The notes beneath the pieces are model-generated. The model made no database searches, was not told the origin of the DNA, and saw nothing but the letters and a program-made list of their open reading frames with translations. Below are positions 11,991 to 34,867 of a stretch of 64,000 nt of DNA, in pieces (position 1 is the stretch's first letter; the number at the start of each line of letters is the position of its first letter). The stretch comes from Halothiobacillus neapolitanus c2 (GTDB lineage: Bacteria > Pseudomonadota > Gammaproteobacteria > Halothiobacillales > Halothiobacillaceae), in assembly GCF_000024765.1 (NCBI RefSeq), contig NC_013422.1, positions 577,501 to 641,500 of the forward strand, read 5' to 3'. The position numbers were made by a program, and so were the translations under genes.

Positions 11991-13013
11991 ATGAAATCAA
12001 ATACAGAACGTATGCCCCGTCGACGCTTTTTGCAATCCGTAGGTTTCGTGGCCGGAGCGACCATGTTGCCAGCTGCTTTTTCCGCACGTGTTTTTGCAGA
12101 GGAGAATCTGGTTATTGCCGGTCCGAAAGTGCCTGATATCAAGCCTACTCCGTTATCTGAGAACGTATTCTGCATTGTCTCGCCATGGGGTTTTCCCTCT
12201 GTTGAGAATCAGGGGATGATGAGTAACGTGACTTTTGTGAACACGAAAAAAGGCGTGGTCATTATCGATAGCGGCGCTTCCCGACAAATTGGCGAGATGG
12301 CATTGCGTCAGATCCGTCAGTTGACCGAGGCCCCCGTGGTGGCGGTCATCAATACGCATTATCATGGCGATCACTGGTTGGGTAATCATGCCTTCGTGGC
12401 CGATAATCCTGACGTATCGCTCTATGCGCACGAGAAAACCATTTCGGCCATCAAGACCGGGCAAGGTGAGTTCTGGCGCAACCTGATGGAACGCTCGACC
12501 GACAACGCCACCATTGGTACGGCAGTCACTCCGCCGACACTGGCATTGAGCCATGGCGACGTACTCGATTTCGGCGATACAAAAATCAAGGTGCATTTCT
12601 ACGGTACGGCACATACGCCCTCCGACATCAGCCTAGAGATCGTGGGGCAGAATCTCGTTCATGTCGGTGATGTCGCGATGGATAATCGAATCGCATTCAT
12701 GGACGATGGCAGTTTCCGCGGGACATTCAAAAATTACGATGCGCTGGAAGCAGCGGTGCCAGATGCATTGTGGATTCCTGCGCACGGGCATCCCGGCAAG
12801 CAGGTTCTTGAACACAACCGGGAATTGTTCGAGGGAATTTACCAGTCCGCTGAAAAGGCTGTCGAGCAGATGGGCGGGCAGGAATTGGCCAAATCTTTGG
12901 CACTTGAAGATCCCCGTGTGAAAAAATACGCACCGGTAACCAAAGGCTTCGACGAAAACATAGGGAAGTACACTTCACTTGCTTACCTGGAAGCTGAGTC
13001 GGCATCATTCTGA
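11991..13013 (+). CDS. Tat-exported metallo-beta-lactamase-fold hydrolase, SoxH-like
   Basis: 340 residues. The N-terminus MPRRRFLQSVGF is a twin-arginine signal, cleaved near AFSARVFA, so a folded metalloprotein is exported to the periplasm. The MBL motif THYHGDHW (HxHxDH) is complete, and later metal ligands appear in GTAHTPSD, HVGDVAMD and WIPAHGHPG. The architecture matches SoxH and quinoprotein-relay metallohydrolases, whose substrates are poorly known. It is followed 137 bp later by sulfur-transport genes on the same strand, supporting a sulfur role (inference). A direct persulfide dioxygenase role is possible but not shown. Confidence 0.88.
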   Translation: MKSNTERMPRRRFLQSVGFVAGATMLPAAFSARVFAEENLVIAGPKVPDIKPTPLSENVFCIVSPWGFPSVENQGMMSNVTFVNTKKGVVIIDSGASRQIGEMALRQIRQLTEAPVVAVINTHYHGDHWLGNHAFVADNPDVSLYAHEKTISAIKTGQGEFWRNLMERSTDNATIGTAVTPPTLALSHGDVLDFGDTKIKVHFYGTAHTPSDISLEIVGQNLVHVGDVAMDNRIAFMDDGSFRGTFKNYDALEAAVPDALWIPAHGHPGKQVLEHNRELFEGIYQSAEKAVEQMGGQELAKSLALEDPRVKKYAPVTKGFDENIGKYTSLAYLEAESASF

Positions 13014-13150: not shown

Positions 13151-13675
13151 ATGTCTGATGGTACGTTGGTGCGCCCGCTGTGGCCGCCCTTGGTTGCCGG
13201 GTTGGTGCTCGGATTGGTCCTTATCCTTACCTTTGTCCTTGTCGGGAATGGCGTGGGTGCATCGGGCACGTTCGCTAGTATTGCAGCCTGGTTGGGGATG
13301 CAGATTGCACCGGCGGCAACGGAATCCAATGGCTATCTCGGCGGCATGGTTGCGAATGGTGCCAATCCGTTCGCGAGCTGGATCGTCGTGGAAGTTGTCG
13401 GGGTGGCCATCGGCGCGCTTCTGGCGGCTGTCAGCGCAGGTCGGTTCAAACTGAAAGTCGATACGGGCGCCGGCAAAATCGGGGTTTGGCCGCGTCTTGC
13501 CCTCGCCTTGATCGGTGGCGCGCTGGCTGGTTTCGGTTCACGTCTGGCCGCGGGGTGCACCAGTGGTGTGGGTTTGTCCGGTACTACGATGCTGGGAATA
13601 GGTGGCTTCATATTCCTTGTGGTTTTCTTTTTTGTCGGCCTTGGTTTGAGCGCACTGCTGCGGAGGGTCTGGTAA
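13151..13675 (+). CDS. YeeE/YedE sulfur-transport half, N-terminal type (PmpA-like)
   Basis: 174 residues, an integral membrane protein with about four to five helices. The family motif GSRLAAGCTSGVGLSG with its conserved cysteine is present at about residues 125-140. YeeE/YedE proteins move thiosulfate or other sulfur species (TsuA); split versions occur as pairs in sulfur oxidisers. An AGGAG site lies seven bases before ATG. Its stop overlaps the next gene's start as TAATG, so the two halves should be made together. Confidence 0.9.
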   Translation: MSDGTLVRPLWPPLVAGLVLGLVLILTFVLVGNGVGASGTFASIAAWLGMQIAPAATESNGYLGGMVANGANPFASWIVVEVVGVAIGALLAAVSAGRFKLKVDTGAGKIGVWPRLALALIGGALAGFGSRLAAGCTSGVGLSGTTMLGIGGFIFLVVFFFVGLGLSALLRRVW

Positions 13676-14331
13676 TGGATTATGGGGTAGCGGGTACTGC
13701 ATTGGCCTCCGGGATTTTGTTTGGCTATGTATTAGAACAGGCGGGCTTTGGATCGCCGTGCAAGTTGACGGCCCAGTTCCGTCTGACTGACTGGTCTGTT
13801 TTCAAAGTCATGTTTACGGCCATCATCGTGGCTTCTCTGGGTATTCTTCTCCTGCAAACCGGAAATTACTTCGGTTCCAAGGGATTCTTCGTGCCAACCA
13901 CGTTCCTCTGGGCAACGGCTTCCGGCGCTGCTCTGATCGGTGCCGGTTTCGCAATCGGGGGCTACTGCCCTGGCACGTCGGTTGTCGGTTTCATGTCGGG
14001 CCGTATCGATGGTCTGGTCTTTATGGCGGGTATGGTGCTGGGGATTTTCGGCTTTGCTTATGTCTACGATAGTGCACTTATTCAGTTTATCCTGCATTCG
14101 GCGCAATTCACTGCAAAAACGTTGCCGCAGTATCTCGGTGTTTCGCCTTGGTTAATCTGGGTCGTTATGGTGTTGGTCGCCGTGGGTGGTTTCGCGTTGG
14201 GTCGAGTGCTTGAGCGGCGCGCTCATGGCGTAATTACTGCCGAAGATATCGTGGATGGTACTGATCCGACTCTTTCCTCTGATGAGCAGGGAAGCGCGGT
14301 ACAAGGTAATCTCGGTTCGCGTGCGGCTTAA
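13675..14331 (+). CDS. YeeE/YedE sulfur-transport half, C-terminal type (PmpB-like)
   Basis: 218 residues with about five hydrophobic segments. The conserved cysteine motif appears as AIGGYCPGTSVVGFMSGRIDG, and an earlier cysteine is in GFGSPCKLTAQF. This completes the transporter begun by the preceding gene. ATG 13675 overlaps the previous stop (TAATG). A hydrophilic C-terminal tail of about 40 residues faces the cytoplasm or periplasm. The next gene, encoding the NPCAP-repeat protein, starts 77 bp later on the same strand. Confidence 0.9.
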   Translation: MDYGVAGTALASGILFGYVLEQAGFGSPCKLTAQFRLTDWSVFKVMFTAIIVASLGILLLQTGNYFGSKGFFVPTTFLWATASGAALIGAGFAIGGYCPGTSVVGFMSGRIDGLVFMAGMVLGIFGFAYVYDSALIQFILHSAQFTAKTLPQYLGVSPWLIWVVMVLVAVGGFALGRVLERRAHGVITAEDIVDGTDPTLSSDEQGSAVQGNLGSRAA

Positions 14332-14408: not shown

Positions 14409-14921
14409 ATGACTCAACAGGATAAAAAAATGACGCGTTCAAAATCACGACGTTTTCTGTCCGCTTCTGTTCCAGCGCTGGCAGTAGCTATTACCGCGGC
14501 TGCTGTGGCGCCTTCACCGGTGAGTATGCTGTCTGTTATTCCCGCAGCTCAGGCCCGAGGTGAAAATCCGTGCGCACCAGCCAGCCGTGGTGGCAACCCT
14601 TGTGCGCCTGCCAGTCGCGGTGGGAATCCCTGCGCACCGGCAAGCCGTGGTGGCAACCCTTGTGCGCCAGCCAGTCGGGGTGGGAATCCGTGCGCACCAG
14701 CGAGCCGTGGTGGCAACCCTTGTGCACCAGCCAGTCGCGGTGGGAATCCGTGCGCACCAGCGAGCCGTGGTGGCAACCCTTGTGCACCAGCCAGTCGCGG
14801 TGGGAATCCCTGTGCACCAGCGAGCCGAGGCGGCAACCCCTGCGCCCCTGCGAGTCGTGGTGGCAATCCCTGTGCGCCGGCAAGCCGTGGCGGGAATCCT
14901 TGCGCCCCCGGTGGCCGATAA
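14409..14921 (+). CDS. Exported protein of twelve NPCAP decapeptide repeats
   Basis: 170 residues. Residues 1-49 are a basic then hydrophobic export signal (SKSRRFLSAS, then an Ala/Val-rich stretch) with a probable cut after AQA. Everything after residue 50 is twelve 10-residue units: GENPCAPASR, ten of GGNPCAPASR, and GGNPCAPGGR. Each unit has one cysteine and one arginine, so the mature protein carries twelve evenly spaced thiols and no tryptophan or other large hydrophobic residue. I know no function for it. Regularly spaced cysteines outside the cytoplasm, in a row of sulfur genes, suggest binding of sulfane sulfur, a metal, or a cross-linked coat. Sulfur globule proteins are also repetitive and exported, but differ in composition. 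Confidence 0.85.
   Translation: MTQQDKKMTRSKSRRFLSASVPALAVAITAAAVAPSPVSMLSVIPAAQARGENPCAPASRGGNPCAPASRGGNPCAPASRGGNPCAPASRGGNPCAPASRGGNPCAPASRGGNPCAPASRGGNPCAPASRGGNPCAPASRGGNPCAPASRGGNPCAPASRGGNPCAPGGR
14559..14918 (+). repeat. Tandem array, twelve 30-bp units with a 60-bp higher-order period
   Basis: Twelve in-frame 30-bp units encode the NPCAP decapeptide. Synonymous choices alternate: units with GGTGGCAACCC(T) and CCAGTCGC alternate with units with GGTGGGAATCC and AGCCGT across most of the array. The array therefore probably grew by duplicating a 60-bp dimer. Because 30 is a multiple of three, all frames stay open, producing long false ORFs on both strands. Confidence 0.95.
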
Positions 14922-14987: not shown

Positions 14988-15695
14988 ATGAACTCTACCC
15001 TGAGCAGTCTGGACGATTATCAAGCTTGGATGACTCAGCTTTCTGAGCCTGATTTCGATGAGCTCGTATCGGTTGCCCAGGAGTTTTTCGATATCAATCG
15101 GTCGCTGAGTAATGATCACCAAACGATTCTAGATGAATTGCTCAAATATGAGGACGACTCGCCTGTAATTCGCTGGCAGCACTACCCAGCGGATGATGTT
15201 CAAGATCCGGATACAGGGGCGATGTATTACTATCATGCCCATGCCGCTGACGAGCGCCCGCAGGATGAGCATGGCCATTTTCATTTGTTCATTCGCCCTG
15301 AGCCGAGTGCCCAATTCAGCCATGTCGTAGGTGTTTCAATCGATGCGCGTGGTGCCGTGCGCTCCCTGTTCACAACCAATCGTTGGGTGACGGACGAGTA
15401 CATTCGACCTGCGGTTGATTTGGTTTCAATGCTGCCTGACGCCTTTGTCGTTAATCGTGCACGCCCATCCTGGTTGGTTTCCCGTTGGTTGATGATGTTG
15501 GTTCGATTGTGCGAGCCACAGATTCGACGGTTACTCAACGCTCGGGATGAGTCTCTGGGCTGGACGGGCGATGGCGAACTGCCCGTCGATGTTGCCGAAG
15601 ATCGCTCGAAGAACGTTTTGAGCGAAGAATTTATTGATATCTATGCGGTATTAACGTTGGTGCAACAGGTTGGACTGCAGCGTTATTCGGCATAA
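14988..15695 (+). CDS. Conserved hypothetical protein, 235 aa, cytoplasmic
   Basis: I do not recognise a function. The protein has no signal peptide. The central motifs WQHYPADDVQDPDTGAMYYY and EHGHFHLFIRP are rich in His, Asp and Tyr and look like a conserved family core (possibly the DUF6969 family, from memory, unverified). Nearby HAHAADE and HGHFH could bind a metal. A C-terminal amphipathic part follows (WLVSRWLMMLVRLCEPQIRRLL). The gene lies 66 bp after the NPCAP-repeat gene and 135 bp before a periplasmic rhodanese, in the same direction, so it may belong to the same sulfur-related unit. Confidence 0.8.
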   Translation: MNSTLSSLDDYQAWMTQLSEPDFDELVSVAQEFFDINRSLSNDHQTILDELLKYEDDSPVIRWQHYPADDVQDPDTGAMYYYHAHAADERPQDEHGHFHLFIRPEPSAQFSHVVGVSIDARGAVRSLFTTNRWVTDEYIRPAVDLVSMLPDAFVVNRARPSWLVSRWLMMLVRLCEPQIRRLLNARDESLGWTGDGELPVDVAEDRSKNVLSEEFIDIYAVLTLVQQVGLQRYSA

Positions 15696-15830: not shown

Positions 15831-16820
15831 ATGAATTTCAAGAAGTTTGTGTTTGTGCCTGCCGTGATCGCGGCATCTTTTGCGGCGCAAGCTGCATACG
15901 CAGTAACTGTGCCGGGACCGCTCGTTGATCCGGCTTGGCTAAACGCCCATTTAAAAGATGTGAAGGTATTGCAGGTCAGTGGAACGATGAAGTCGTTCAC
16001 TACCGCACCTGAAATGAAAGAAATCAAAGGCAAGAATGTTGCTGTTACGGTGAGCGGCCACGTGCCGGGCGCATCGTTCGTCGATTTCAAGACGGTTCGA
16101 GTCAGTCGTGATATTGATGGCAAGATGGTCAAAGGTGTAATCCCCGATAAAGCAGCATTCGAGAAGCTGGTTCAATCTTGGGGTGTTAACAAAGGCCAGC
16201 CGATTGTCATCGTGCCCAAGGGGCTTTCCACCCCCGATGTTGACGAAGCGACACGTTTGTACTGGCAATTGAAGTACTACGGTCAGGACAATATGGCCAT
16301 TCTGAACGGTGGTATGGCTCAATGGCTGGCTGATGGCATGCCTGCTGCCACGGATGCGCCCGCTGTTTCGGCTGGTAACTGGGTTGCATCAGCGGAACGA
16401 AAAAACATTCTGGCAACCTATCAGGAAGTCAAAAAGGCTGTTGAGCACCCAGGCGCAGTCGAGTTTGCTGATGCCCGTCCAACTAACCAGTATATGGGGG
16501 TTTTTACCAAGCCAAAAGAGCTACCTGGACACTTGCCTGGCGCAAAAAATGTACCACCTGATTTGTTGACAACGGCGGATGGCGCCTCTGCCCGCTTTTT
16601 GCCTAAAGCCAGTTATGAATCCATGTTTAAAACGGTTGGATTAAATTCAGGTAAAGAAATCATCGACTATTGCAACACAGGTCACTTGGCATCTGGTCTC
16701 TGGTTTGTGACCCATGAAATCGTTGGTGATAAGAAAGCCCGTCTTTATGACGGCTCTATCGTTGAGTACAGCATGTACGATGGCGCCAAGATGAATGACC
16801 CAGCTATGCTGGGAAAATAA
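15831..16820 (+). CDS. Periplasmic tandem-domain rhodanese
   Basis: 329 residues. A Sec signal peptide ends near AAYA. Two rhodanese domains follow: the first (residues about 30-165) lacks an active cysteine (its loop reads PKGLSTPD), while the second (about 190-320) has YCNTGHLAS, an active-site cysteine loop. Such thiosulfate or 3-mercaptopyruvate sulfurtransferases move sulfane sulfur to acceptors such as cyanide, thiols or proteins. AAGGAG stands upstream of the ATG. A terminator follows at 16857. It is the last gene of the sulfur-themed block. Confidence 0.92.
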   Translation: MNFKKFVFVPAVIAASFAAQAAYAVTVPGPLVDPAWLNAHLKDVKVLQVSGTMKSFTTAPEMKEIKGKNVAVTVSGHVPGASFVDFKTVRVSRDIDGKMVKGVIPDKAAFEKLVQSWGVNKGQPIVIVPKGLSTPDVDEATRLYWQLKYYGQDNMAILNGGMAQWLADGMPAATDAPAVSAGNWVASAERKNILATYQEVKKAVEHPGAVEFADARPTNQYMGVFTKPKELPGHLPGAKNVPPDLLTTADGASARFLPKASYESMFKTVGLNSGKEIIDYCNTGHLASGLWFVTHEIVGDKKARLYDGSIVEYSMYDGAKMNDPAMLGK

Positions 16821-16856: not shown

Positions 16857-16886
16857 AAAAGCGCCTTTTCCGGGCGCTTTTCTTTT
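16857..16886 (+). terminator. Terminator after rhodanese gene
   Basis: AAAAGCGCC pairs with GGGCGCTTTT around a short TTTTCC loop, followed by CTTTT. It is 37 bp past the rhodanese stop and should end rightward transcription of the sulfur block. Confidence 0.85.
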
Positions 16887-16914: not shown

Positions 16915-16947
16915 TAAAAAACCCGCTGAGCATAGCGGGTTTTTAGT
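16915..16947 (-). terminator. Terminator after phosphoribulokinase gene
   Basis: AAAAACCCGCT and AGCGGGTTTTT pair around GAGCAT. Read on the minus strand the stem is followed by a T run, placing it 26 bp after the phosphoribulokinase stop. The near-symmetric A and T runs may make it bidirectional. Confidence 0.85.
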
Positions 16948-34054: not shown

Positions 34055-34867
34055 TTAATCGGTGAGAGAAAACTTGATGGGCTGTAAGTAGTTCCAGCTG
34101 ATGGCTTTACCCCCTTGGGTTGCCGGATGAAAGTGCCAGCGCCGTATGGCTTTAACGGCCGACTGATCCAAAAGCGGGTAACCGCTGGAGCGCTTCACGC
34201 TGACATCCTGCACACTGCCGTCTGCCCCAATCACAAGAGATAACACGACCGTACCCTCCTGGCCCCGCTTGCGGGCAGCACGAGGATAATCCGGCGGCGG
34301 GTTGTTGCCTGCGCGCGCATCCAATCTTGGTTGAACAACGGGCGGCGGTGTTTGCACCGGAACGGGATTCGTTGCGATTGTTGGGGCTTTCTCCGCTTGG
34401 GACGAATCCGATAAAGAATGTTGAACCGTCGCTAACGACTCCACTGCTTTATTGGTCGGACGAGCCTTGGTTTGAGGTGGACTTTTTTTCACCGTTGGGC
34501 GTGGAAGGGGTTTTGCCTCTGGTTTTGCTTTTGGTTCAGTGATAGCTGGCTTGGGAGCCGGTTTCGGTTCAGGTTCTGGAGCAGGAGCAGGAGCTGGTTC
34601 AGGAGTTGGTTCAGGAGTTGGTTCAGGAGTTGGTTCAGGAGTTGGTTCAGGCTCTATCACCGGCGAAGGTTGCGTCAACAATGTACCCAGCATCACTGCT
34701 TCCGGCGCACTGACTTGCGCAGGTTGCGATATCGATTCGCTCCGCAATAGGGCATAGAGCACAACTCCGTGCAGTCCAATAACAAGGCCAAGCAAGAGAA
34801 TGCTGTTGCCCCTTGAAAGACCAGGTAGTCGCGAAGGATCCGTATGTTGATGTAAGTGCGCTTTCAT
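34055..34867 (-). CDS. tonB: TonB energy transducer
   Basis: 270 residues. A single N-terminal helix (ILLLGLVIGLHGVVLYALLR, with the conserved histidine) is followed by a long Pro/Glu/Lys-rich spacer containing PEPTPEPTPEPTPEP, and a C-terminal TonB domain with DYPRAARKRGQEGTVVLSLVIGADGSV and the conserved SSGYPLLDQSAVKAIRRW. It transmits energy to outer-membrane receptors. The 5' ends of tonB and the receptor gene face each other around a Fur-box candidate. Confidence 0.95.
   Translation of the reverse strand: MKAHLHQHTDPSRLPGLSRGNSILLLGLVIGLHGVVLYALLRSESISQPAQVSAPEAVMLGTLLTQPSPVIEPEPTPEPTPEPTPEPTPEPAPAPAPEPEPKPAPKPAITEPKAKPEAKPLPRPTVKKSPPQTKARPTNKAVESLATVQHSLSDSSQAEKAPTIATNPVPVQTPPPVVQPRLDARAGNNPPPDYPRAARKRGQEGTVVLSLVIGADGSVQDVSVKRSSGYPLLDQSAVKAIRRWHFHPATQGGKAISWNYLQPIKFSLTD
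34596..34643 (-). repeat. Four tandem 12-bp units in tonB
   Basis: The unit GGTTCAGGAGTT (plus strand) repeats four times without change and encodes the PEPT steps of the TonB spacer. Such arrays are prone to length change, which would alter spacer length. Confidence 0.85.

Follow-up and report, generated by a model that had tools for sequence, protein, structure and literature searches.

We analysed a 64,000-nucleotide stretch of the genome of the sulfur-oxidising bacterium Halothiobacillus neapolitanus c2 (contig NC_013422.1, positions 577,501 to 641,500; hereafter, the window); the whole genome is a single contig of 2,582,886 bases. The window encodes a protein built largely from twelve cysteine-containing decapeptides, and its gene belongs to a same-strand cluster that comprises, in order, a metallo-beta-lactamase-fold (MBL) hydrolase, a split YeeE transporter, the repeat gene, a DUF6969 protein and a signal-bearing rhodanese. 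DUF6969 genes also stand beside genes for cysteine-repeat proteins in other genomes, and this pairing is the strongest result of the analysis. The features of the cluster are as follows.

11991..13013, + strand: MBL-fold hydrolase (PF00753, 77.3 bits) with an RRRFLQ leader, Tat-type in appearance.
13151..13675, + strand: YeeE/YedE-type sulfur transporter, first half-gene (PF04143 Sulf_transp, 72.1 bits, profile positions 172-307 of 310), with the cysteine of GCTSG.
13675..14331, + strand: YeeE/YedE-type transporter, second half-gene (PF04143, 50.5 bits, profile positions 3-150 of 310), with cysteines in GSPC and GGYCPG.
14409..14558, + strand: leader of the repeat protein, with a positive start, a hydrophobic stretch and the ending ...AAQARG; secretion-type as judged by eye from the sequence.
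14559..14918, + strand: twelve GGNPCAPASR units with 12 Cys, predicted to be disordered; the stop codon is at 14919-14921.
14988..15695, + strand: DUF6969 protein of 235 residues (PF22308, 198.8 bits against a cut-off of 27), with a His-rich conserved core.
15831..16820, + strand: two-domain rhodanese with a signal-like N-terminus (PF00581, 58.4 bits against a cut-off of 22.2, in two stretches) and an active-site Cys in YCNTGH.
16857-16881 and 16917-16944, + strand: two terminator-like hairpins 3' of the rhodanese gene, the strongest of the region.

The repeat gene is an intact 170-codon open reading frame (ORF; 14409-14921, + strand) with a 170-residue product. An initial annotation, made from the sequence alone, had reported twelve near-identical NPCAP decapeptides at 14559-14918 with a 60-bp DNA period, and both observations are borne out. 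The array consists of exactly 12 in-frame units of 30 bp, running from GENPCAPASR (unit 1) to GGNPCAPGGR (unit 12), with NPCAPASR kept in 11 of the 12 units and GGNPCAPASR in 10. Tandem Repeats Finder calls a period of 60 (5.6 copies, 89% matches) and also one of 30 (11.2 copies, 74% matches). That annotation omitted the 50-residue leader (14409-14558), in which R14, L17, S20, P22, A47, Q48 and R50, together with the adjoining G51, are invariant across seven aligned rows. The two-unit alternation of synonymous positions claimed there is evident in units 2-11, where mean DNA identity is 0.908 at a lag of two units and 0.748 at a lag of one, and it weakens in units 10-12. The higher identity at lag 2 and the better fit of the 60-bp than of the 30-bp period support the proposal that the array grew by duplication of a 60-bp pair. 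Comparison of units 2-11 in all pairs, a check that had been suggested with the annotation, yielded 258 synonymous and no nonsynonymous differences, with synonymous and nonsynonymous proportions (pS and pN) of 0.71 and 0; site counts alone would lead to a synonymous share of 27% of changes. Purifying selection acts on the array peptide, as had been proposed, and from residue 51 to the end the composition (G25 P24 A23 N12 C12 R12 S11 E1) contains no large hydrophobic residue. The structure model of the repeat protein has a mean pLDDT of 41.7.

Two other accounts of the array were considered and rejected. ORFs in the other frames or on the opposite strand mirror the repeat, which excludes them as the real gene, and a chance repeat or decayed array is contradicted by the open arrays of relatives, the purely synonymous unit differences and the shuffle controls. 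The window contains a second tandem array, at 34572-34651, with a 12-bp unit (GGTTCAGGAGCT, 6.7 copies), inside an ORF at 34055-34867 on the - strand.

A scan of genome contigs for relatives of the repeat gene found 11 loci, mostly of Halothiobacillus or Guyparkeria. Decayed or frameshifted arrays in relatives had been named in the initial annotation as evidence that would count against it; the arrays found are open. Their size varies from 4 to 14 NPC units, several being truncated by contig ends, and they keep the core RGGNPCAP, while the two residues after it vary (S, A, D). The segment from the MBL gene to the repeat gene is kept in L002-L005, L009 and L010, and is followed by DUF6969 and the rhodanese where the locus reaches far enough. 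The succession YeeE, repeat, DUF6969, rhodanese was established by direct reading in the window and in L002, L050, L092 and L093; for L051 it includes a repeat ORF identified by eye, and other loci were measured by distance only.

DUF6969 (PF22308) is present in 20 of 398 genomes of the phylum sample and 30 of 369 of the class sample (the window genome is in both), and in none of 14 control genomes. We surveyed 49 DUF6969 loci besides the window, one genome contributing two, and flagged any ORF of at least 40 codons in which one Cys-containing tripeptide occurs at least four times in 80 residues. A flagged ORF lies within 1.5 kb of DUF6969 at 33 of the 49 loci; the same rule flagged one ORF (L131, a spurious frame) in 594,677 farther bases and none in 980 shuffled stretches. 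With shorter arrays read by eye at nine further loci (L051, L135, L142, L145, L147 and L149, then L141, L143 and L150, where L141 and L143 were counted on two PC motifs each), a Cys-repeat neighbour is found at 42 of 49. For a comparison by genome, an NPCAAK query (E up to 0.01) matched 28 of the 398 phylum genomes, the window genome not among them; 14 were kept by eye and 14, having no PC-repeat frame, were dropped. DUF6969 occurs in 9 of 14 NPC-array genomes, compared with 20 of all 398 (Fisher p 4.7e-10). We hold with high confidence that DUF6969 pairs with Cys-repeat proteins.

The partners are of four kinds. The first has a leader followed by NPCAPASR, NPCAPSAR, NPCAAK or similar units, and the second a hydrophobic N-terminal segment ending in ...IDHTRH, followed by SPCGL or NPCSLD units. 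The third lacks the PC motif and carries CGAK (L048), GCCAAE (L046), CAAG (L047), CAAT (L135) or GCC (L136), and the fourth combines a haem domain with NPC arrays that adjoin or surround it. The repeat protein of the window is one member of a wider class of Cys-motif repeat proteins, mostly PC[A/G/S], which forms a two-gene module with DUF6969. Two of the non-PC partners (L046:9682-9975 and L047:9388-9816) have an N-terminal AACS or SACS box that resembles a lipoprotein signal. Hand-set partner labels are clustered on a DUF6969 tree (14 changes against a shuffled mean of 27.0, with as few in 0 of 200 shuffles), a pattern that could arise from relatedness alone; the incomplete row L132 was omitted from this tree, and L124, which has YeeE 1.2 kb away, was nonetheless assigned to the haem group. 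L012 and L129 have identical DUF6969 sequences.

In an alignment of 59 DUF6969 rows, H83, H85, E94, G96, H97, H99 and H112 are kept in 58, the remaining row being gapped there, and N131 and V134 are kept in all 59. The N-termini lack a hydrophobic stretch, with one of the 59 slightly above the threshold, and the protein is therefore probably cytoplasmic; given its invariant His and Glu residues, it probably binds metal. The AlphaFold2 model is confident (pLDDT 93.7, pTM 0.92). Foldseek returned no match to this model in the PDB at E up to 0.001 (best E 0.75), VIA-align against solved structures gave a best Z of 3.4 (root-mean-square deviation 13.2 over 100 residues), and a profile search of PDB sequences reached an E of only 1.2; this missing structural match does not show the fold to be new. 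We also tried DUF6969 as a remote relative of MNIO or DUF2063 and rejected both (hhalign probability 0.13% and 0.08%, respectively).

That DUF6969 modifies the cysteines of its repeat partners is a suggestion that we make tentatively and at somewhat less than even confidence. It might instead be no enzyme at all and serve as a chaperone or export escort, keeping a Cys-rich disordered chain reduced and soluble, in which case the repeat protein could have any thiol task. The predicted disorder of the repeat and the fact that the partners have little in common beyond Cys repeats would suit such an escort, but the strict HxH...E..HxH...H pattern appears to resemble a metal site more than a binding groove, and we consider this role improbable.

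Two further enzyme families occur near some of these genes. The substrate motif of formylglycine-generating enzyme (FGE) is CxPxR, and formylglycine formation at the repeat Cys was rejected, since the unit sequence CAPASR reads CxPxxR, one residue off that motif. FGE-type enzymes act on cysteines, and an FGE-sulfatase domain gene separates or adjoins DUF6969 and the NPC gene in L036, L037 and L039, with a shorter match in L124. Radical SAM genes occur near Cys-repeat genes at L083:8107-9096 and L048:10291-11436; the latter has DUF3641 by Pfam and the former clusters with it. The genome of L083 has no DUF6969.

The genes around the module point to a possible substrate. Both YeeE half-genes exceed the PF04143 cut-off of 27, which makes them members of Sulf_transp (their cysteines were located by eye), and the ATG of the second overlaps the stop of the first. 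The MBL hydrolase is related to SoxH-like quinoprotein relay hydrolases (TIGR04559, 134.8 bits, under the cut-off of 280); it belongs to the upstream part of the cluster in both Halothiobacillus and Guyparkeria and adjoins YeeE in L002-L005, L009, L010 and L137-L139. Single terminator hairpins are weak evidence because 12 sites were found where 6.3 are expected, and the + strand of the cluster yielded no sigma-70-type promoter (one overall, on the - strand, against 4.0 expected). Of the 49 DUF6969 loci, 19 have YeeE within 4 kb, 18 have a rhodanese and 17 have both; all six rhodaneses looked at have a signal-like start and a YCN[ST]G[HN] site. In L088-L090, YeeE, a long NPC array and a rhodanese stand together with no DUF6969 called among the neighbours; in these genomes DUF6969 stands beside a second NPC gene. 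The haem domain of the monohaem NPC fusions is over the cut-off of PF21342 (SoxA-TsdA_cyt-c) in all 11 scanned. SoxA and TsdA act on thiosulfate. The YeeE/rhodanese and SoxA/TsdA-type haem contexts suggest that the substrate is sulfane sulfur, and among the disulfide, metal and persulfide options raised in the initial annotation, the neighbourhood and the relatives favour sulfur chemistry. YeeE-like SoxT has been proposed to import sulfur from persulfidated periplasmic SoxYZ into the cytoplasm (PMC11582611).

A structural or stress-protective envelope protein, cross-linked by disulfides and placed near sulfur genes by chance of operon history, would accord with the low-complexity composition of G, P, A, C, R, N and S and with repeat numbers that range from 4 to 14 among relatives. 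It leaves unexplained both the DUF6969 pairing at 42 of 49 loci and the recurrent YeeE, rhodanese and SoxA-type contexts, and we regard it as highly improbable.

We hypothesize that the repeat protein is a disordered, multi-site poly-cysteine carrier of sulfur in the periplasm, a reading that we put at close to an even chance, slightly on the lower side. In this scheme, DUF6969, most likely cytoplasmic and metal-dependent, would prepare the cysteines or escort the precursor ahead of export. We infer from the leader that the intrinsically disordered product is exported, whereupon the exported rhodanese would transfer sulfane sulfur, from thiosulfate for instance, to the cysteines of the repeat, which would then carry it as persulfides. 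The flexible array could then present this sulfur at the membrane, where the YeeE-type transporter would take it into the cell for oxidation; the direction of transfer and any catalysis by DUF6969 are likewise parts of the proposal. Loading would fall, in other bacteria, to a SoxA/TsdA-type cytochrome fused to the repeats. The broader proposal is that DUF6969 is the first of a new family of metal-dependent enzymes, whose action on repeated PC[A/G/S] cysteines ahead of export gives rise, by modifying them, to a new class of RiPP-like (ribosomally synthesised and post-translationally modified peptide) products serving as sulfane sulfur relays between rhodaneses or SoxA-type cytochromes and YeeE/SoxT. 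We consider this broader proposal rather unlikely as it stands.

Several observations weigh against the carrier hypothesis. Neither YeeE nor a rhodanese was found within 4 kb at 29 of the 49 DUF6969 loci, and no Cys-repeat neighbour is in view at seven of them (L034, L041, L044, L049, L131, L132 and L151); L041 and L132 are curtailed by contig ends, and L041 starts at a contig start in a genome with an NPC gene on a different contig, at its end. DUF6969 cannot be a general requirement, because five genomes (G052, G022, G269, G254 and G195) have NPC arrays and no DUF6969 by PF22308 or by our own profile, the latter used without a positive control; G052 and G022 are 99% complete. The PF21342 scores of the monohaem fusions are modest (27.6-46.7 bits against 27), five of these 11 also exceed the cut-off of CCP_MauG (PF03150), whose E-value, over about 35 residues, is the better one in two, and the haem fusion in L035 is P460-like, under the cut-off. 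Finally, three of the 49 DUF6969 loci have MNIO bufferin operons nearby (at 6.5 kb in L042, and in L048 and L127), which would suit a metal role.

These mixed loci bear on an alternative in which the product is a RiPP-like metal buffer: the PC[A/G/S] cysteines would be modified by DUF6969 while still in the cytoplasm, and the product, once exported, would bind copper or another soft metal in the manner of bufferins. The bufferin plan of leader, repeated Cys motif and dedicated cytosolic partner (PMC12452194) is matched here. In L048 and L042, DUF6969 has MNIO, DUF2063 and DoxX genes in its vicinity. L127 has MNIO and DUF2063, in a single-strand series (L127:7895-11665) of two NPC genes, DUF6969, a DUF2282 precursor, MNIO and DUF2063. 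This succession looks as if both systems answered one stress. Extracytoplasmic function (ECF) sigma factor genes near several loci would also fit a metal buffer. However, the MNIO at the mixed loci has its own DUF2282 precursor (by Pfam in L048 and L127, by eye in L042), DUF6969 has no profile similarity to MNIO or DUF2063, the MNIO of the window genome (PF05114) has a repeat precursor of its own and lies about 290 kb from the window locus, and YeeE and the rhodanese suggest sulfur. Taking both sides together, we think a metal buffer doubtful, though a stronger candidate than an escort role for DUF6969. NPC repeats as MNIO substrates at the three mixed loci were rejected on the ground that the MNIO there has its own DUF2282-type precursor.

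An ECF sigma family member lies near the NPC or DUF6969 genes in L040, L041, L043, L048, L083 and L084 (identified by Pfam in L041 only), and in five of these six a small zf-HC2-type gene follows it. The only MNIO match of the window genome (G000:C1:299984-300766, locus L094, outside the window) has a DUF2063 partner alongside; a leader-bearing DSSCGANMKK repeat peptide and an ECF sigma-like ORF are nearby, making this a separate bufferin-like locus.

Among known systems, the nearest plan is that of the bufferins and oxazolins. Sec-exported Cys-motif precursors with dedicated partners are described in the MNIO landscape paper (PMC12452194), sections 15 and 17 of which name neither NPC repeats nor DUF6969. 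The common ground is an export-type leader, a repeated Cys motif (by eye), an adjoining cytosolic partner and an origin in Pseudomonadota. In contrast to bufferins, the partner here is DUF6969, with no MNIO in the cluster and no DUF2063 partner, the repeat motif is PC[A/G/S] rather than EGKCG, and the contexts are YeeE/rhodanese or a SoxA/TsdA-type cytochrome.

In its proposed role the repeat protein would resemble SoxYZ, where a periplasmic Cys shuttles sulfane sulfur, with an oxidant or transferase at one end and YeeE/SoxT at the other. The carrier cysteine of SoxY lies near the C-terminus, in a GGCGG-type arm; the repeat protein ends in NPCAPGGR, not in such an arm. It also differs from SoxYZ in being disordered (as predicted), in having 12 Cys, in its partner DUF6969 and in matching no Pfam family at E up to 0.1, and thus no SoxY domain. 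With the YeeE/TsuA/SoxT systems, the window cluster has the transporter family and the substrate class in common. Those systems come with YeeD/TsuB or TusA-like partners, whereas in the window the transporter is split in two genes and is accompanied by an exported rhodanese and a Cys-repeat protein. In the literature searched, which lacks most subscription journals, we found no publication naming DUF6969 or PF22308, nothing relevant to NPCAP/NPCAAK-type repeats among the matches listed, and no paper on Halothiobacillus together with YeeE; a wider search on Cys repeats was likewise unproductive.

The recurrence of such proteins beside DUF6969 and close to genes for sulfur handling suggests an undescribed cysteine-based carrier system. 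The route by which sulfane sulfur passes from periplasmic enzymes to the cytoplasm of sulfur oxidisers is described as poorly understood (PMC11582611), and a disordered poly-cysteine carrier, if the hypothesis is correct, would be a new and directly testable answer to how this sulfur is imported. For DUF6969, a family with no assigned function, the pairing with varied exported Cys-repeat proteins provides a likely job.
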